Notes: generated by a model from the sequence alone, not told the origin. A stretch of DNA of 64,000 nt from Vulcanimicrobiota bacterium (GCA_003168375.1 PMSI01000003.1:186001-250000), one strand, 5' to 3'. Counted from the first letter of the stretch, positions 13,328 to 22,185 are shown. Numbers and translations are program-made.

Positions 13328-15612
13328 CGGATCGTCAGGATCAAACGAAGCGCGGCAGGCTCGAGCACGAGCGCGTCGCGCGGGGCGGGTGCGGCGCCCG
13401 GCAGCGGGTACGGCGTACCGAGTCCGAGCCGCGTGAAGCGGCCGCTGACGGCATTGGTGAGGTTCGTGCCGGCGAGGGTCAGATCGAGGTGGCGCCACGT
13501 TTTGCCGAGCGCCGCGTCGAGCGTCGCGAAGCGGCCTTGCGCGAGCTCGTTGTTCGCGCTCTTCGCGCTCAAGTTTGCGGCGCCGTGCATCCCGGCGTGC
13601 GCGTAGCGCAGACCGAGCGAGAACGCCTGGATCGGGATGCCGGCGAACTGCTGCCCGACGACGAGATCCGATCCCGAGGTCGGATTCGCGGCGACGACAT
13701 CCGGAAGCGACGTCGGGTACGCGGCGTTCACGCCGTACTCGGCGGTGGCGAACCACGGGCCGAAGCGGTGCGCCACCCGCAGCGACCCACCCTGATAGAC
13801 GACGCTCCCGACGTTGATCGGAAAGGATTGCGCGACGACCGTGCTGACGCCGTTCGGGCAGGTCGTGCCGAGTGGATAGAAGTTCTCGATCGGGTCACGC
13901 AAGTTCGTCCGGTACAGGGTCGCGTCGACGGTCGTCCGTCCGAATCGCTTGCCGTAGCCGAGCTCGTACTCGGTGGCGTGCTCGGCGCGCTCCTTCGGGT
14001 TACCGTTTGCGCCGACGCAGTTCGCGTCCGGCGTCAAGTCCGCGACCGGCAAGGTGTAGAGCTCGGCGAGCAGCGGCGCGCGGAATCCGGTGCCGGCGGC
14101 GAAGCGGAGCGTCCCGCCGCCGGCGTCCTCGTAGGCGATTCCGATCCGGCCGTCGATGCTCGATCCGAAGCTCGACCAGTGCGACGATTCGACGCTCGCG
14201 CCGATGCGCACCCGCGGCCCGACGTCTCCGCTCGCGCGCAGCCACGCCTGCGTTGCGTGCTCACGCTGCGTTGTGACGAATTGATCCGGAGACGTCAGTA
14301 CCTCCGAGCGCGTTTGCGTGCCCAGCGCGAAGCTCGCCGTGCCGACGTTGCGCGTCCACTCCGCCTTGGTCGTCGCGAGCCGATCGGTCAACGAGAGATC
14401 ATACGGTGAGAACGCACCCGCGTCCGGCAGCATCCGGGTGACGGCCGTCGCGTTGCTGGAGAGGCCGCTGCTGATCGCGAGCGTCCCCGCGCCGAGCGGC
14501 AGCGTCAGGCTGCCCAGCGTCGCGCGGATGCTCAGCGCCGACGTCTCGGGTCCGCTTCCCACGAACGCAGCGCCCGGCGCATCGTTCGCGGGATCGGCGG
14601 GCGCGGTCTGCGCGGCGCCTTCGTCGCGTCTGCCGTCGACGGTCAACGTGCGCAGCCGCAGCGTCGAACGCGGCGAGAAGTCGTAGCTCAGGTTGACGAG
14701 CCCGGTGGCGAGCGCCGTCGACGAACCGACGCGCGTCGCGACGTTGGTCGTGCCGCCGTTGCCGTCGGGGACCTGCAGCGTCACCGGATAGTCGTGCACG
14801 TAACCGCCGGCATGCGCGCTGCCGAGCCCGAGCGCATACCCGAACCGCGAGACGCGACCCGTCGCGTTGAGCTCGACGGACGACGCGCCGAACGAGCCGG
14901 CCGACAGCCGCAGCGCCCGCTGCGGCGTCGCCGTCGGACGAAGCGACACGAGGTTGATCTCACCGCCGATCGTATCGGCGCCGCCGCGGTCCTCCGGTCC
15001 GAGACCTTCGCTGACGTCGACTGCGGAGAGCACCAAGCTCGGGAACGACGCGAGATCGAGATCGCCGGTGTTCGCGTTGTTGAGCGGCTGACCGTCGAGC
15101 GATATCCGCGTCTCCGACGGATCGGGACCGCGCAGCGAGACGACCGTCGTCGCGCTCGCCGTTCCGGAGTCCGGACGGGTCAGCGTGACCGAGGGTATCC
15201 CGGCCAGCGCCTCGATCACGCGATCGTACCCCAGCGCGTCCAGCTCCGCGCGCGAGATCTCGCGCGACGGTACCGTCGTGTGCGGTACCGCCAGACGTCC
15301 GTCGACGCTGACCCGTCCGATCTCGCGCAGCCGGCCCGCTCCGATCGGTTCGAGCGCGACGTCGATTCGCTCACCTTCGTGCACGACGACGTCGGTCACG
15401 GCTACTGCGTAGCCCGGTGAGACGATTGTGATCCGGTACGCGCCGGCCGGCACGGTCACGCTGAACCGACCGTTTGCATCGCTGTCGGCGGTGGCGCGTG
15501 ACGGTCCCGCAAACTGCACGTGGGCGCGGAGCGGCGCCCCATCCGCCGAGTGGACGGTGCCGGAGATCCCGCAGCACGCGACGGCGGCAGCGAGGATAAT
15601 CGGGACGGGCAT
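13324..15612 (-). CDS. TonB-dependent outer-membrane receptor
   Basis: A 762-residue outer-membrane gated channel. A signal peptide (MPVPIILAAAVACC) precedes a carboxypeptidase-regulatory-like beta domain (GISGTVHSADGAPL, residues 16-95). Then come the plug (VIEALAGIPSVTL, RISLDGQPLNN) and a 22-strand-type barrel ending with a short aromatic-poor tail (ALRLILTIR). The pattern suits transport of a siderophore, cobalamin or glycan; none can be assigned. It is evidence for a diderm envelope. ATG 15612 is the only start compatible with the signal peptide. Confidence 0.9.
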   Translation of the reverse strand: MPVPIILAAAVACCGISGTVHSADGAPLRAHVQFAGPSRATADSDANGRFSVTVPAGAYRITIVSPGYAVAVTDVVVHEGERIDVALEPIGAGRLREIGRVSVDGRLAVPHTTVPSREISRAELDALGYDRVIEALAGIPSVTLTRPDSGTASATTVVSLRGPDPSETRISLDGQPLNNANTGDLDLASFPSLVLSAVDVSEGLGPEDRGGADTIGGEINLVSLRPTATPQRALRLSAGSFGASSVELNATGRVSRFGYALGLGSAHAGGYVHDYPVTLQVPDGNGGTTNVATRVGSSTALATGLVNLSYDFSPRSTLRLRTLTVDGRRDEGAAQTAPADPANDAPGAAFVGSGPETSALSIRATLGSLTLPLGAGTLAISSGLSSNATAVTRMLPDAGAFSPYDLSLTDRLATTKAEWTRNVGTASFALGTQTRSEVLTSPDQFVTTQREHATQAWLRASGDVGPRVRIGASVESSHWSSFGSSIDGRIGIAYEDAGGGTLRFAAGTGFRAPLLAELYTLPVADLTPDANCVGANGNPKERAEHATEYELGYGKRFGRTTVDATLYRTNLRDPIENFYPLGTTCPNGVSTVVAQSFPINVGSVVYQGGSLRVAHRFGPWFATAEYGVNAAYPTSLPDVVAANPTSGSDLVVGQQFAGIPIQAFSLGLRYAHAGMHGAANLSAKSANNELAQGRFATLDAALGKTWRHLDLTLAGTNLTNAVSGRFTRLGLGTPYPLPGAAPAPRDALVLEPAALRLILTIR

Positions 15613-15785
15613 GGGTTTACTCTTCGCGTCTACCGACGATTCGCCCCGGTGCGTGGACGGACTTTGGTCCTAATCGTCCGTTATTCTGCGCATTCCGATC
15701 ATGACAGCGTCGCAGGCGCACCGCGTTGCGCTTTATGGGTGTCGAAACTCCTCTGCGGCGATCCCCGACTCCACCTGGTAGAGTC

Positions 15786-16382
15786 TCACGGCGACATTCT
15801 TCCGCGAAGTGTTTCAGGGATGAACGGAATCCGCCCGGGAGATAACCTCGTTGACGATACGGAGCTCGTGCGCAGTATCGTTTCCGGGATAATTACCAAG
15901 TTCCGACCGTGAGGTCTATCGGCGGCCGACGGCGCGATGATAGCTTCGAATCGCTCGCTCCGTGCGGCTTCACCGATCCGCTGCGTGAAAGGAAAGCGGC
16001 GGGAATTCTGTTCTCGTAGCCACGGTCCGTGAAGGTCGCTCAACGACACGCCAAGCGTGGCGCGAATGCTAGGGTCACACAGATTCAGGACCTGACTCAA
16101 GTCAACTTTCACCGTGAGCATAGCACGACCCGCGATCGCACGGACGATACCGTGAACGTCCGCTATCGCGCCGACTTCGAGAAGCGCGGTTTTCTTCCGG
16201 CGCGAGACGTAGTATGCCTCGAACGTGTTCTTACGGTTGTACCGGCCGCCGCGTTGCGTCGAGCCATAACCGGACAGCGGAGATCCTGCATGAACGAGCA
16301 GGATGGAACGATAGAATCTGCCGGCAAGCGCGACGCGCCGAACGCCGGCAAGCCGCGTCCGAAAGCCGCGAACCGTCGTCAG
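15786..16382 (-). CDS. RES-domain NAD+-degrading toxin starting at CTG
   Basis: A 198-residue reading frame matching the RES toxin family (NAD+ phosphorylase/glycohydrolase, toxins of Xre/MbcA-RES modules). The four residues known to matter in the family are all present: Arg47 in GGRYN, Tyr57 in EAYYVS, Glu69 in TALLEVG and Ser152 in IIAPSA. The C-terminal block FTQRIGEAAR also fits. The first ATG in frame (16121) would delete the first three of these. No ATG, GTG or TTG exists between that point and the in-frame stop at 16398-16400. The only reasonable start is CTG at 16382, which overlaps the antitoxin's TGA as CTGA. Alternatively the start was lost and the gene is silent. Confidence 0.75.
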   Translation of the reverse strand: MTTVRGFRTRLAGVRRVALAGRFYRSILLVHAGSPLSGYGSTQRGGRYNRKNTFEAYYVSRRKKTALLEVGAIADVHGIVRAIAGRAMLTVKVDLSQVLNLCDPSIRATLGVSLSDLHGPWLREQNSRRFPFTQRIGEAARSERFEAIIAPSAADRPHGRNLVIIPETILRTSSVSSTRLSPGRIPFIPETLRGRMSP

Positions 16383-16753
16383 ATCGGTTGACCGCTCTCA
16401 AGGGCGTACGCCAGCGTTTCGACGGAAGCGAAATCGCCGTCTATCAGAAGGTCGAGGGGAGAGGCGTGATCGAGTTGAGGCCGCGGGCTCTTCAGCCAAA
16501 TTAACGTCGAGCGGCGCGAGCCCAAGAGCTCGTCCAGACGCGCCAGGAGGACGGCGATCTTGCGTCCGGGCTTTTGAAGTCGTTCCGATGCGGGGTTGCT
16601 GCGGAGCGCACGCTCCGTCAGGTGGGCTGTCTTTGCAACTCGTCCGAGCGATACGTCCAACGCTCGCGCCAGAGCGGGTCCTAGTACCCGCCCGCGCGCG
16701 TCGAACACCTCTTCTGCGGCCACTCTCTTAAGGGCGGCTCCCGAGACTCCCAT
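16379..16753 (-). CDS. Xre/MbcA/ParS-type antitoxin (DUF2384)
   Basis: A 124-residue antitoxin. The N-terminal half reads like the helical Xre-like DNA-binding region (RVLGPALARALDVSLGRVAKTAHLTERALR). The C-terminal half is the toxin-binding DUF2384 region (LLGSRRSTLIWLKSPRP, SPLDLLIDGDFASVE). ATG 16753 is chosen because GGAAG lies about ten bases upstream and homology begins just after it; the frame stays open to 16972. It would repress its own operon and neutralise the RES protein encoded immediately downstream with a 4-base overlap. Confidence 0.8.
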   Translation of the reverse strand: MGVSGAALKRVAAEEVFDARGRVLGPALARALDVSLGRVAKTAHLTERALRSNPASERLQKPGRKIAVLLARLDELLGSRRSTLIWLKSPRPQLDHASPLDLLIDGDFASVETLAYALESGQPI

Positions 16754-17030
16754 CGTGCCACAAAACTTCCAGATGCGTAGTAGTCTACCTTTCAAAAATA
16801 TGCTGTCTCGCAACTTCGCGACCATCGACATGTCCCGACTCGTGTCAGGAGCAGCGGCGCCGCGCCGATTAGGGAGAACGAGGCCCCATTCGAGACCGGG
16901 CGGCCGCCACGAAGAATCTTTACGTTTAATGTCGACGGCGCGGCGGAAAATCGCCCCTCTATCTAGCATCAATTGAGCTCGGCCGGTCCCCCGGCCAGGG
17001 GAACTGTCAGACCTGCGGGAGGGGTGCTGC

Positions 17031-17507
17031 GTGCCACGACCCTTGCTACGACCCCCTACGTCCGAGGGGCCGCTTACCCGAGTTCCGTCGACCGGACCGA
17101 CGAAGAGGACCCTAACGGGCGACGCGCTGACCGCGCGCTTGCGGGTGAAGCGGTCCGCCGCCTATATGACCGCCTTGATGAAGCTCGATGCAGGCGGACA
17201 CGGGATCAATCGGGAAACCGCGCGCGCGCTCGTCGACACCGTTCGCATCGAGTTCCCTGAGCTTACGATGGATCAGCTCCTGCTCGGGATCGTGGCGAAA
17301 TGCTACCTCGGCGAGCCGTTTGAGATCCACACGCTGGACATCGCCGGCTGCATCGTGACGCACTTCAAACGCGGCGAGCCGATGCCCGGCGGATTGGAGA
17401 AAGCCCGGGCGATCGGGGTCAACCCGTATTACGCGTTCGTCGAAGTCTATCCGACAAGCGTACGTGCCATCCGTGCCGATGGCGGCGTCACCGTGACGGA
17501 GATTTGA
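17031..17507 (+). CDS. Unknown protein, first gene of the AAA+ cluster
   Basis: A 158-residue protein starting at GTG with a good ribosome site (GGAGGGG, 6-8 bases upstream). The first 30 residues are Pro/Arg/Thr-rich and look disordered. Residues 40-100 are helical (RSAAYMTALMKLDAGG, ETARALVDTV, TMDQLLLGIVAKC). Residues 100-158 look alpha/beta (DIAGCIVTHFKRGEPMPGGLE, YYAFVEVYPTSVRAI). No family is recognised. It is the promoter-proximal gene of the six-gene run ending at 22009 and sits divergently from the toxin-antitoxin pair, 277 bases away, with nothing recognisable between them. Confidence 0.68.
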   Translation: MPRPLLRPPTSEGPLTRVPSTGPTKRTLTGDALTARLRVKRSAAYMTALMKLDAGGHGINRETARALVDTVRIEFPELTMDQLLLGIVAKCYLGEPFEIHTLDIAGCIVTHFKRGEPMPGGLEKARAIGVNPYYAFVEVYPTSVRAIRADGGVTVTEI

Positions 17508-17510
17508 TCC

Positions 17511-19217
17511 GTGCCAGACTTCGTAGCAGACGGTCTCCTTGCTGGGATCGCGTCGAGGCTCGCGACCGTGAGCTCGCAAATCAACTCGCTGTCCGCCGAT
17601 GTGCAGACGATCGAGCACGCCAGCGTGGCGCTCCAGATACAGCTGACCTCGTTGACCGCGGACTTCCACCAGTTCGTTCAGCACGACTCGGCGCACAAAG
17701 AGATCCAGATATCCGAAACGCGGATCGTGCGCGTGCGACAAGAGGTCGAGGCGACGTTTGGATTCTACGCCGAGATCCGGCGCCGCGCGACAGGCATCTT
17801 GCAGGCGTCCGATCTCGCGATCGTCCGTCAAGAGACGATGCGCAGCTCCACGGAGGAGGCGATGATCGGCGCGCCGGGGTACTGGCTCGCACCCGCGCTC
17901 GTCGCGCTGTCGGCGTGGATCGCCGATAAACGCGAGCTCGCCGAGAAGGCGCTGCTGGAGGCGATGCGGCGCGACGACTGCAAGACGTCCTTGCTAATGA
18001 CGCTCGTCTGCCGGCGTTTGGGGCGCCACGACGCGTCGCGCGCCTGGCTCGTGCGCTATTTCTCGCTGCAAGACCCGTTTGCGCTCGACCGCGATGTGAT
18101 AGTGCTCGTCGATGCGCTCGCAAGCGGCGTCTTCGGTGCGGCCAGCATCGCCAAGAGCCACGAAGCGATCGGCGCCTGGCTGCAGGAGATCGCCAATCGA
18201 GTCGGCGTGATCGAAGAGCAGCGCGCTCGTTGGAACGCTGCGCTCCACGGCATGAAGCCCTCGTCTCTGGCGAATCGTTACCCGTATCTCGAAAAATACA
18301 GCCCGAGCTGGCCCCACTTGCGCGATGGACTGCTCGGAGTCGGAATCAACGGGGTCTTCGGCGACAAGGTCAAGCAAATGTTCGGCGGCGAGATCGTCCT
18401 CTCGCCTAGACTCGTCGAGCGGGTCGACGGGCTGGTCGACAGCCTGGTGAAGAACTTCGACGATGCAGAGCTGCCGTTGCGCCGCCAAGAGCGACGCTTG
18501 CAGCTCGTGATCGACGCCGACGGCGACCGCGCGGCCGCCGACGCGCAGTTCGCGATCGAGACCCAGGCATTTCAAGAGCAGGCGAGCTTCATCTCCGTCC
18601 TCACCAACGCCGCGCTCGGTATCGGCGTTGGCGACCTCTCGCGTGCGACTCAGCGGCTTGCGTTCGCGATGTCGGTCCCGTGGATCGTCGAAGCCTACGA
18701 CGACGTCGTCGCCGACGTCCGCACGAAGCAGCCGGGGACGATCGATCTCAAGATCGAGACCTGGTCCGGCGTTACCACCGACGGCGGCAACGAAGCCGCA
18801 CTGTTAGAAGACCTCGAGAGCCACATCACCGCCGAGGAGTCCGCGCAATTCGCGAAGCTCAACGGCGTGGGCTTCTGGTGGTCGTCGATCGCAGCGGCTC
18901 TCTGCGTCATCTTGGCCGCCGTCGTGCATCCGTTCGCGGTCACGTGGCTGGTCTTCGCAGCGACCTTCGGGACGATCCAAGGAATCTCGTACTTGATGCG
19001 CATCAGCAAGACGAAGCGCCTCAAAACGCACTTCGCCTCGCGGCGCGAGGCGGGTGCGTCGATCGTCAAAGCGCTGTGTGCGGAGGTCGTCGATTTGCGC
19101 GAAGAGGTGACTCGCGAGGACGCACGCGCCGAAAGTGTTCGGACGAAGCTCGGGGAGATTCGTTCGGGCGAGCACGTCGGCGCCGCCGTCGAGCAAGGCC
19201 GGAGGATCGTGGCATGA
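17511..19217 (+). CDS. Large helical membrane-associated protein, unknown
   Basis: A 568-residue protein starting at GTG four bases after the previous stop. Residues 5-60 look like a coiled coil (ASRLATVSSQINSL). Residues 100-430 are a long helical domain with a possible repeat character. Two adjacent hydrophobic helices lie near residues 454-494, followed by a charged C-terminal coiled coil (EVVDLREEVTREDARAE). This topology, a big cytoplasmic helical domain with a C-terminal hairpin anchor, would place it at the membrane. No family is recognised. It overlaps the next gene by four bases. Confidence 0.72.
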   Translation: MPDFVADGLLAGIASRLATVSSQINSLSADVQTIEHASVALQIQLTSLTADFHQFVQHDSAHKEIQISETRIVRVRQEVEATFGFYAEIRRRATGILQASDLAIVRQETMRSSTEEAMIGAPGYWLAPALVALSAWIADKRELAEKALLEAMRRDDCKTSLLMTLVCRRLGRHDASRAWLVRYFSLQDPFALDRDVIVLVDALASGVFGAASIAKSHEAIGAWLQEIANRVGVIEEQRARWNAALHGMKPSSLANRYPYLEKYSPSWPHLRDGLLGVGINGVFGDKVKQMFGGEIVLSPRLVERVDGLVDSLVKNFDDAELPLRRQERRLQLVIDADGDRAAADAQFAIETQAFQEQASFISVLTNAALGIGVGDLSRATQRLAFAMSVPWIVEAYDDVVADVRTKQPGTIDLKIETWSGVTTDGGNEAALLEDLESHITAEESAQFAKLNGVGFWWSSIAAALCVILAAVVHPFAVTWLVFAATFGTIQGISYLMRISKTKRLKTHFASRREAGASIVKALCAEVVDLREEVTREDARAESVRTKLGEIRSGEHVGAAVEQGRRIVA

Positions 19218-19381
19218 GCGACGATTGGGGCGCCCCCTCACAGCCGCAGACCGCGGGCGGCGACGAGCACAAGCCGCCGGTGACTGATCCAGCGGCCGCG
19301 TGGGCCGCCCTCGCGGACTCTTTCCCGGGGTGGACGCTCGATCCGCCGCTCATGCTCGAGCCGCGCCGCCCGTCGGCGTGA
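19214..19381 (+). CDS. 55-residue small protein in the AAA+ cluster
   Basis: A short frame exactly bridging its neighbours: ATG overlaps the upstream TGA (ATGA) and its TGA overlaps the next ATG (TGATG). The product is Pro/Ala/Trp-rich (AAAWAALADSFPGWTLDPPL), with a probable disordered N-terminus and one amphipathic helix. The perfect stop/start coupling on both sides is the main evidence that it is translated. Function is unknown; it could be an adaptor peptide between the membrane protein and the ATPase. Confidence 0.6.
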   Translation: MSDDWGAPSQPQTAGGDEHKPPVTDPAAAWAALADSFPGWTLDPPLMLEPRRPSA

Positions 19382-19923
19382 TGACGACCCCGCCCTCGAC
19401 CTACGCCGAGTGGGTGGGGGTGATCCATGCGTTCGAGGGCGGCGGACAGGACGAGACCGTTGTCGAGCTCCTGCAATCGGCCCGCGTCGTGCTGTCGGCG
19501 GGGATGGGTGAGCGCTTCTACCGCCGCATCATCGATGTCTTCGCGCTACGCGTTCGGAGGATCTCGGCGTCCTTGCAAAAGCGGCTCAGCCGCGGCACGG
19601 ACGCCGTCGCGTTCGGCGCCGCGATCGTCAGCGCACGCAAGGAGCTCGCCGTGCTGGCGAGATTCGCCGTCGCGCCATGCTGGCCGCAGGATGCGGCCAA
19701 GATGATGCGCGACTCACTCGACGAGTTCACGCGCAAGACGTACGACGCGCTGGAAGAGTCGGCCCGCAAGCACGAATGGTTTGACCAAGGCGTGCAGCTT
19801 TCGCTGGTCCGCAGAACTCTGCTATCGGTTCCTTGGCCGCAGACGAGCTCGCCGTCCACGACGAGGGGTCTTGGGTCCGCTGCGGCGCCGCCGGTGGGCG
19901 TCAGCCGCCGGATCATCTTCTAG
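19381..19923 (+). CDS. Helical protein of the AAA+ cluster, unknown
   Basis: A 180-residue, predominantly alpha-helical protein (IIDVFALRVRRISASLQKRL, ARKELAVLARFAV, DSLDEFTRKTYDALEESARK) with a Pro/Ser/Thr-rich tail. No signal peptide, membrane helix or catalytic motif is seen. It starts at an ATG sharing its A with the previous stop and is followed 11 bases later by the AAA+ ATPase, so it may be a partner or substrate adaptor of the ATPase. Confidence 0.65.
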   Translation: MTTPPSTYAEWVGVIHAFEGGGQDETVVELLQSARVVLSAGMGERFYRRIIDVFALRVRRISASLQKRLSRGTDAVAFGAAIVSARKELAVLARFAVAPCWPQDAAKMMRDSLDEFTRKTYDALEESARKHEWFDQGVQLSLVRRTLLSVPWPQTSSPSTTRGLGSAAAPPVGVSRRIIF

Positions 19924-19934
19924 AGGATCGATTC

Positions 19935-21479
19935 GTGCCCGATGCCGCGACCACACGCTCCGTACTCGTCCGCTACTTCAAGGCGCGCATTCCGTTCATC
20001 TCGTTTCGAACTTCGGAGCGCGCTCGCGCTCTCGATGTCCTCAGGTCGGTCGCCTCGGAGATCAACGTGCCCGTCTACGTGCACACCCTCTCGAAGGGAC
20101 TGGTCGACATCGTCACCGACCGCAGCGTCTCGGAAGACCGTTCACTGATGGGCGCGCTCGACTTCGCTTCCGAGCAGATGAAGTCTCGTCAGAACATGTC
20201 GTTCGTGCTGACCGACGTCTCCGACATCGAGGACGACACTGCGGTCTCTCGTCAGATGGTTGACGTTGCGCTGCTCGCCAGCGAACGAAGCGGTTCGATC
20301 GTCGTCATTACGACGAAGCCGATCTGGCCTATGCTGCAGCGTCTTGGGATGAGCATCGAGCTCGACACTCCGACCGAGGACGAGATGCTCGGCATCGTCA
20401 AGGCGAACGTCGAGCCCTATCGCGGCCAAATCACGGTCGAATGGGGCGATCCTGAATTTCGCCAGGCCGCGTCGATCCTCGCGGGCATCTCGCAGATCGA
20501 GGCGGAGAACGTGCTTGCGACCCTGCTCGCAAAAGGCAATATCGCCACGACCGACATGGACGAGCTGGTCAAGGCCAAGGACCGGATCTTCTCAGACATC
20601 TCAGGTATCGAGCGGGTGCCAGTACGCGACCTCTCCGTTGGCGGTCTCGCCGGACTTCGAGCATGGCTGGAGCGTGAACGCCCGCTGATGACGGCGGACT
20701 TGCGCGAGCGCAATCTGCGCCCTCCACGTGGCGTACTCTTAGTGGGCGTACCCGGCTGCGGTAAATCGCTGAGCGCCAAGGCGATCGCCACTTCGTGGAA
20801 GCTTCCGCTGTTCCGGTTGGACCTAGCCAACATCTACGGCCAGTATTTGGGCCAGAGCGAAAGCCGGCTGAAGGACGCACTCGCGACGGCCGACCACGTC
20901 GCACCGTGCGTGCTGTGGATCGACGAGATCGAAAAGGGCTTGGCGGGCGCGGGCGGGACCGACTCCGGAACCAGCACGCGGATGGTCGGCCACTTCCTGT
21001 TTTGGTTGCAAGAGGCGCAATCACGCGTGTTTGTGGTCGCGACGGCGAACGACGTCTCGCAGCTCCCGCCCGAGCTTCTGCGGCGAGGCCGTTTCGACGA
21101 GATCTTTTTCGTGGATCTTCCGAGCGAGGACGAACGCCGCGAGATCATCTCGCTCTACGTGCACCGAAACCTCAAAGCGCCGATTGGCGAGACGCTGCTC
21201 GATCAGCTCGTGCAGCAATCGGACGGCTTTGCGGGCTCGGATCTCGAGGCCGGCGTCCGCGAAGTCGCCAAAGATGCGTTCCTCAAAGGCGACGACGTCG
21301 TGAACGACGAGCTCTTCCTGAGGTCGTTCCGCAACATCGTGCCGCTTACCAAGACGAACCCCGAGCGCATCGAAGCGATCCGCGCATGGGGCCGCGACCG
21401 TGCCGTTCCCGCGTCGGGGCGCGTCCTCTCTGCCGAACCAGCCGACGGCACCAGGCTCCGGCGCATTGTGCTCACATAG
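19935..21479 (+). CDS. Ycf46-like AAA+ ATPase
   Basis: A 514-residue ATPase. The N-terminal 240 residues form an inactive, P-loop-less alpha/beta domain of the type seen in Ycf46 ([25 protein letters not shown]). The AAA+ core follows: Walker A GVPGCGKS near 271, Walker [11 protein letters not shown] near 326, sensor-1 VATAND near 373, and arginine-finger region RRGRFDEIF, close to the FtsH/p97 class. A lid with SGSDLEA-like sequence ([13 protein letters not shown]) follows. GTG 19935 is preferred because GAGG precedes it and homology starts there, although the frame is open to 19833. It likely remodels a protein complex powered by ATP; the target is unknown. Confidence 0.85.
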
Positions 21480-21493
21480 GGGTATCGCTGCTC

Positions 21494-22009
21494 ATGGCCG
21501 CCGCTCGATTCTGTCCGACCTGTGGGTCTCCGCTCACCAACGGTGTGTGCATGACGTGTCCGGTGCCGATGTTCAATCCCGCACCGCCACCCAGTGCTGC
21601 ATCGACGACGCCGATCGCGTCGTACACGGCGGTTACGCAGCAGCCGGGTATGCAGTGGCCGTACCCGAGCGCACCGGCGTATGTTTCGGGTTCACAGTAT
21701 GTCGGCATGTGGAACTGGGGAGCGTTCCTGCTCTGTCCGTTTTGGCTGATGAACCATGGCCGGGTCGGCCGCGGCATTTTATACATGGCGCTGAGCTTCA
21801 TCCCTATCGTCAGCTTGGCGTCTTTGGGCATGGCGATCGCGTACGGTATCAAGGGAAACGAGGTTGCAACGACGAGCCGGCGATTCGTCGACGACACCCA
21901 ATTCGTCGCCGTTCAGAACGCGTGGCGCAATTGGGGATTCGGTTTCCTAATCGTCGCCGTCGTCATCGGCGTGCTCGGCGGTATCACGGAGGCCGTCTCC
22001 GGCCGCTAG
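21494..22009 (+). CDS. Zinc-ribbon membrane protein, last gene of AAA+ cluster
   Basis: A 171-residue protein. Cys7, Cys10, Cys19 and Cys22 (CPTCG ... CMTC) form a zinc ribbon. Residues 25-70 are Pro/Ser/Tyr-rich. Two or three hydrophobic segments follow: WNWGAFLLCPFWLM near 76, ILYMALSFIPIVSLA near 96, and FGFLIVAVVIGVLGG near 148. This is a common bacterial zinc-ribbon plus DUF2628-like membrane architecture of unknown function. It starts 14 bases after the ATPase stop and is probably in the same transcript. Confidence 0.72.
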   Translation: MAAARFCPTCGSPLTNGVCMTCPVPMFNPAPPPSAASTTPIASYTAVTQQPGMQWPYPSAPAYVSGSQYVGMWNWGAFLLCPFWLMNHGRVGRGILYMALSFIPIVSLASLGMAIAYGIKGNEVATTSRRFVDDTQFVAVQNAWRNWGFGFLIVAVVIGVLGGITEAVSGR

Positions 22010-22185
22010 TAGTCGTGGGGCTCTTAGCTGAGCGGCTTACACCTCACGCATCCGTTAGCTAGAGGATGAGACCTCCGAGGCCGGGCGTTCGGGGCGGCGG
22101 GCGCGGCTCCGTAAAGAAAGCTAGACTCGTCCGAGCGATGCAGGCAATCTGAAGTGACCTTCCGACGCTGGCAAGGCGCGCAAGA

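Follow-up and report, generated by a model that had tools for sequence, protein, structure and literature searches.

A module of five genes, here termed g1 to g5, was identified at positions 17031–21479 (plus strand) of a 64,000-nucleotide stretch of DNA from a Vulcanimicrobiota bacterium (the window), and has a scattered distribution over nine or more bacterial phyla. It encodes an AAA+ ATPase (g5) and four partner proteins, and a short terminal tag of one pattern recurs on the ATPase and on three of its partners. A five-gene module of this breadth, with four families that lie outside Pfam, NCBIfam, PADLOC and, in practice, PHROGs, represents a sizeable annotation gap. What would otherwise be an "unknown operon" gains, from the shared tags and from the way in which g1 and the g5 tag disappear together, a concrete hypothesis open to simple experiments.

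Extent, distribution and genomic setting

A sequence-only reading of the window had described a tightly coupled six-gene cluster, and its coordinates and coupling match those found here. Six adjacent ORFs lie on the plus strand: g1 (17031–17507; 158 aa, with a GTG start and beginning MPRPLL), g2 (17511–19217; 568 aa, after a 3-nt gap), g3 (19214–19381; 55 aa, with an ATGA overlap with g2), g4 (19381–19923; 180 aa, with a TGATG overlap with g3), g5 (19935–21479; 514 aa, a classical-clade AAA+ ATPase, after an 11-nt gap) and g6 (21494–22009; 171 aa, a zinc-ribbon membrane protein, after a 14-nt gap). A scan of genome contigs harboring g5 yielded 80 loci, and clustering of all neighboring ORFs over these loci recovered g5 in 80, g4 in 78, g2 in 76 and g1, located beside g2–g5, in 64; the next commonest neighbor family was present in only 8, and no neighbor beyond g1–g5 is conserved across loci. 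The gene order over approximately 75 loci is g1-g2-g3-g4-g5 or, in most Clostridia-type loci, g2-g4-g5 followed by g1. The distance matrices of the families are correlated (r 0.86–0.92), a value reached by 0 of 500 permutations. The co-occurrence that the sequence-only reading put forward for checking is seen for g1–g5, which recur together elsewhere far beyond chance.

The same does not apply to g6, for which tblastn detected no relative at the other module loci, that of the sister species among them, and a profile search gave just sub-threshold matches to DZR and DUF2628. Since g6 has no relative at the other copies, the unit consists of five genes, g1–g5, and g6 is not a member; of the cluster proposed earlier, the co-conserved core (approximately 75 loci) stands and the sixth gene does not. 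It is very improbable that all six genes constitute one system, as that proposal had it, because a g6 relative is absent at every other module locus, even though the gap between g5 and g6 is just 14 nt and certain g3 proteins elsewhere do contain a zinc ribbon. Extra g2-like copies were observed in divergent modules, three in locus L113 (5918–13191) and two in L092 (4961–9475).

The g5 tree contains eight named phyla besides that of the window and is clustered by phylum, with some odd placements, among them the Streptococcus oralis copies, which are nested in Lachnospiraceae. In a sample of 199 genomes from one genus (centre G198, Flavobacterium locus L048), g1, g2 and g5 were present in exactly the same 3 genomes. 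In a second sample, of 198 genomes related to that of the window, g2 was found only in G000 and its genus mate G005 (2/198); 26 other genomes of this sample have generic AAA proteins related to g5, mostly at 31–38% identity, and g2 accompanies a g5 match in just two (G000 and G005) of the 28 genomes that have one. The module is therefore present in 1–2% of genomes in these two samples of approximately 200. The clustering by phylum, the sparse presence and the odd placements indicate an old module that few genomes have retained and that has undergone some transfer.

The proposal that the cluster occupies an accessory site is borne out by a close relative, G004, the nearest with both flanking genes on one contig: its flanking proteins are 92–98% identical to those of the window, and approximately 1.9 kb of other DNA (L135 7748–9674), the ORFs of which gave no Pfam family match, takes the place of window positions 15593–22184. 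This variable site adjoins a Crp-like regulator. The toxin–antitoxin pair reported as a neighbor is of the RES-Xre type (15786–16972, minus strand; RES PF08808, Xre/MbcA/ParS PF09722); both families are real, but the match of the RES ORF is confined to profile positions 86–141 of 157, and the toxin looks N-terminally incomplete. Module copies were also found on Komagataeibacter and Comamonas plasmids, and these copies, together with the module-less site in G004, identify the module as cargo of mobile elements; the satellite phage Javan368 was not counted. In Streptococcus oralis the module is situated downstream of rpsD, and this case at first resembled satellite-phage cargo (Javan368; L115, MK448457.1). 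A satellite-phage origin was rejected as a boundary artefact, because further strains also have the block immediately after rpsD; the Javan368 record probably includes chromosomal DNA downstream of rpsD (L115 8844–14257). In locus L139, three serine-recombinase-like ORFs adjoin the module on a contig predicted to be a provirus; as read from the sequences, MoxR-like ATPase and vWA-like ORFs are on one side and the serine-recombinase-like ORFs on the other (L139 1700–4042 and 16739–20234). The immediate neighbors of the module are mostly housekeeping genes, and near neighbors are no richer in PADLOC families than distant genes, at a loose threshold with which the far matches listed are mostly UvrD-type helicases. 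Of the suggested variable or defence island, the variable site was recovered, but no enrichment of defence genes near the module.

The ATPase and its partner proteins

By its sequence, g5 is the only module protein with a known family: it matches PF00004 at residues 267–394 (E 9e-31, 107 bits against a Pfam cut-off of 21.2). The segment from Walker A (GVPGCGKS) to Walker B (LWIDEIEKG), at 20745–20939 on the plus strand, is invariant or nearly so in a 29-sequence alignment, in which the sensor ATAND and the arginine finger are also intact. With Walker A, Walker B, sensor 1 and the arginine finger all present, g5 has the hallmarks of a classical AAA+ ATPase and, with every catalytic AAA+ motif kept, is predicted to be active. 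No Walker-type or Pfam AAA match was detected in its N-terminal half. The best sequence relatives in the PDB are unfoldases of the VAT/CDC48 type. Single-gene g5 relatives in other genomes align over nearly the full length, mostly at 31–38% identity, and the module orthologues form a tighter set (39–67% identity to the window g5). PHROG 8638, a phage protein family without known function that consists of full-length g5 relatives, matches residues 7–503 (E 1e-102). The resemblance of g5 to the Ycf46 type denotes full-length similarity to unnamed relatives and to PHROG 8638, the libraries searched containing no named Ycf46 model.

The partner proteins were assigned to nothing known, in agreement with what the sequence-only reading had supposed. 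Searches with g1–g4 gave nothing above the curated cut-offs of Pfam and NCBIfam, no families in PADLOC 2023 at E≤0.1 and, for the window proteins, no match in PHROGs; scanning 50–60 relatives of each of g1, g2 and g4 still gave no convincing family. The Streptococcus oralis g2 has two weak matches to PHROGs without function (E 0.0005 and 0.009).

The coiled-coil start and membrane hairpin proposed for g2 are supported by both its sequence and its AF2 model (mean pLDDT 86), in which a 96-residue N-terminal helix leads into a TPR-like helical region and a small beta hairpin, with the membrane hairpin next and a long helix at the C-terminus. The predicted membrane hairpin, at approximately residues 453–500 (18867–19010, plus strand), comprises two hydrophobic stretches, with modelled helices at 453–472 and from 476 onward. 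The best structural neighbors are TPR proteins (residues 83–208, Z of approximately 11, rmsd 4.1, 101 aligned residues), a likeness that helical repeats may owe merely to a shared arrangement. No Pfam TPR match was obtained for the window g2, and one g2 relative matched weakly (E 0.0016). A PDB sequence search with g2 gave only weak helical or coiled-coil matches, none of them convincing.

The g1 protein is predicted to consist of a disordered N-terminal tag and linker followed by a small alpha/beta domain, and its AF2 model (mean pLDDT 80) shows the same domain after a low-confidence start. R41, D53, C91, H100, H111, Y134 and E138 are invariant in an alignment of 50 relatives. Neither a PDB sequence search nor Foldseek returned a match at E≤0.001, and comparison by Foldseek and VIA-align gave no usable match to a fold, the best Z being just 2.6. 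The g4 protein appears helical as read from its sequence and has an N-terminal motif, [TY]YAEW, in a 60-sequence alignment; the PDB sequence search gave only weak helical or coiled-coil matches.

The g3 protein is small and proline-rich, and probably mostly disordered. Its C-terminal motif in the window is FPGWTLDPPLMLEPRRPSA (19322–19378, plus strand) and in the sister species FPVWDLLPKTTLLNRRKRRVE; the family consensus is [LF]PxW[DNS][LIV]xPPxxx[VI]RR, and the consensus end reads [LF]PxWDLxPPxxxVRR. Being short and variable, g3 was missed by mechanical searches, but 64 of 74 loci have an ORF with [PA]xW[DNSET][LIVP]xP in the interval from g2 to g4, compared with 6 of 7071 control windows. 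Some forms of g3 have an added N-terminal zinc ribbon, and L106 and L083 carry the g3 motif as a fusion at the g2 end.

Shared terminal tags and their linked loss

The pattern R-x-[IVLM]-[IVLMF] recurs at the C-terminus of g5, g4 and g2 and at the N-terminus of g1. In the window, the plus-strand tags are (M)PRPLL in g1 (17031–17048, where the end is written VPRPLL), GRRIVA in g2 (19197–19214; RxPhiPhi), SRRIIF in g4 (19903–19920) and LRRIVLT in g5 (21456–21476), and g3 has no N-terminal tag; the corresponding ends in the sister species are PRPIL, RERIAS, RRRILL and RRAVLT. A variable low-complexity linker adjoins each tag. The C-terminal tag was present in 68 of 82 g5 proteins (83%), 37 of 78 g4 proteins (47%) and 28 of 83 g2 proteins (34%), against 16 of 910 other ORFs of the same loci; the N-terminal tag of g1 was found in 28 of 65 proteins, or in 37 of 65 with the start re-chosen (43–57%), against 28 (46) of 910 other ORFs, which gives an overall background of 2–5%. 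The pattern was picked after these ends had been viewed, so the exact ratios are flattered, whereas the width of the gap is unaffected by that choice. As the foregoing counts take in related sequences, the set was also reduced to 33 clusters, defined by 75% g5 identity, in which the tag remained in g5 (23/33), g4 (12/33), g2 (10/32) and g1 (16/21). The g4 tag is missing from most Clostridia-type loci despite the presence of g1.

Loss of g1 and loss of the g5 tag go together. Among the 64 loci with enough flanking sequence, the g5 tag was present in 53 of 54 with g1 and in 0 of 10 without it; the sole g1-bearing exception has GRRVVV approximately 20 residues before the g5 end, and a sensitive search revealed no hidden g1 in the g1-less loci. 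L083, with a truncated g5 tail and no g1 beside g5, is likely a further case. Because the ten tagless loci represent one clade of small-genome Bacillota/Mycoplasmatota plus L113, with L083 a likely addition, they amount to two or three independent events, not ten.

Possible roles and relation to known systems

We infer that the five proteins form one complex, with the tags as docking signals and g1 as their reader, that remodels a membrane-proximal substrate; the account we favor, at an even chance of being right, is that of an AAA+ remodelling complex anchored in the membrane and organised by the terminal tags that its parts share. In such a complex, g2 would be a membrane-anchored helical scaffold, g5 the motor for unfolding a protein or pulling it apart, and g1, g3 and g4 small adaptors or targets. 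In most components, a flexible linker would join the folded part to a short terminal tag (R-x-hydrophobic-hydrophobic), and the tags would unite the parts by docking at one shared site, which g1 most likely provides or mediates, with the assembled complex acting on its membrane-proximal substrate under stress or attack. The co-conservation, the shared tags, the joint absence of g1 and the g5 tag, the g2–g3 fusions, the scaffold model of g2 and the AAA+ motifs of g5 were counted for this account. Against it were counted the non-independence of the sequences and of the tagless loci (one clade and L113, with L083 likely), the presence of the g2 tag in just a third of proteins, the absence of the g4 tag in most Clostridia-type loci and the lack of an N-terminal tag on the window g3.

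Whether such a machine would serve conflict or housekeeping is a separate matter, and a defence role and a role in stress or quality control are about equally likely. Tentatively, the module could act in conflict with phages or between elements, its AAA+ protein serving as the sensor and a membrane protein as the effector, as suggested by its patchy occurrence at an accessory site, its carriage on plasmids of Komagataeibacter and Comamonas, the copy beside serine recombinases in L139, the position of the Streptococcus oralis copy downstream of rpsD, a satellite integration site, and the likeness, at the superfamily level, of the g5 AAA domain to the defence ATPase IetA; the lack of PADLOC matches for g1–g4, mostly housekeeping immediate neighbors with no defence-gene excess over distant genes, and the lack of any recognised toxic or nuclease domain argue otherwise. 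Those same neighbors, and a g5 tree that by its phylum structure suggests an old module inherited by descent with many losses, would suit an alternative held with equal reserve, namely a sparsely kept physiological system for envelope stress or protein quality control that takes no part in conflict, but its presence in just 3 of 199 and 2 of 198 sampled genomes, the plasmid copies and the nesting of the Streptococcus oralis copies in Lachnospiraceae fit this less well.

A different meaning of the tags themselves was also considered. In sequence comparison with a published table (PMC9775585), they resemble the C-motif-2 and N-motif-2 recognised by E. coli ClpXP, examples of which are MuA RRKKAI and YbaQ RAKKVA, and DadA MRVVI and IscS MKLPI, respectively, although ClpX tags are loosely defined. 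The tags may thus be recognition signals for the host unfoldase ClpX(P), which would keep the proteins scarce or dismantle the complex, with g1 aiding delivery and the module acting when ClpXP is overloaded or blocked; we regard this as unlikely. If ClpX reads the tags, hosts of tagless modules might be without ClpX, and this prediction was put to the test: in the sampled hosts of the tagless g1-less clade, ClpX was found in 0 of 10, FtsH in 10 of 10 and ClpP in 3, while 22 of 24 sampled hosts of tagged modules have full-length ClpX, one a fragment and one none. The last (L061) has a tagged module but no ClpX match, and ClpP is missing too, so that its assembly may be incomplete; the L113 and L083 hosts possess ClpX despite the absence of g1 and of a normal g5 tag from their modules. 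As the ten ClpX-less hosts of tagless modules constitute one reduced-genome clade, and hence a single evolutionary event, the ClpX link rests on that clade, and the link between g1 and the tag rests on slightly more. Less probable still is a mobile AAA+ machine of a new kind whose ATPase and other subunits carry a ClpX-class tag, by which host ClpXP would hold it down until a block or overload of ClpXP sets it free, g1 being the adaptor that reads the tag; if the ClpX link is true, a mobile system would be wired to the host's main protein-disposal machine.

The module was also compared with known systems. Ycf46-like and other stand-alone classical AAA+ ATPases resemble g5 over nearly its whole length, but the module g5 travels with g1–g4 and mostly has a C-terminal tag. 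The CDC48/VAT/AFG2 unfoldases, its best PDB sequence relatives, share its AAA core but differ in that the N-terminal half of g5 lacks a Pfam AAA match, and the NCBIfam CDC48 model scores 112 bits against a cut-off of 803. The AAA domain of g5 (residues 254–483) is of the IetA type found in the IetAS anti-phage system, but it reaches only 70 of the 510 bits of the NCBIfam IteA cut-off, and the module has different partner genes, with neither a subtilisin-like (IetS) partner nor any protease. ESCRT-III/Vps4 and PspA-type remodelling systems are comparable only in how they work, by an AAA+ protein, a helical membrane protein and short partner tails; no PspA/Snf7 or MIT match was found in g1–g5 (g1–g4 at E≤1), and g2 is modelled as TPR-like with a membrane hairpin. 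ClpX substrates such as MuA bear basic-hydrophobic terminal tags (C-motif-2 or N-motif-2), as here (PMC9775585), but the module repeats one tag on several subunits of an operon, the AAA+ ATPase included. In the MoxR-vWA ternary conflict systems, small proteins bear conserved C-termini (PMC7159879), and their combination of an AAA+ core with a small, fast-varying protein ending in a conserved peptide is like that of the module, which nevertheless has no MoxR, vWA or peptidase gene and a g3 motif that is neither FxSxx nor RxD.

A literature search, the scope of which left out preprints and many journals, returned no AAA+ operon with these features, the Ycf46 papers being mostly plastid or cyanobacterial. 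The module appears to be new in its partner families and as a five-gene unit, because no known system has those families and g5 scores too low for each named AAA system against which it was measured; g5 itself is an ordinary classical AAA+ protein. The earlier suggestion of an undescribed, accessory and co-conserved system around a two-part AAA+ ATPase with a membrane and coiled-coil partner is in this respect upheld. In one Clostridia genome, a 1132-residue Clp-AAA/FtsH-peptidase (M41) fusion is encoded right after g1 (L060 6758–10156).
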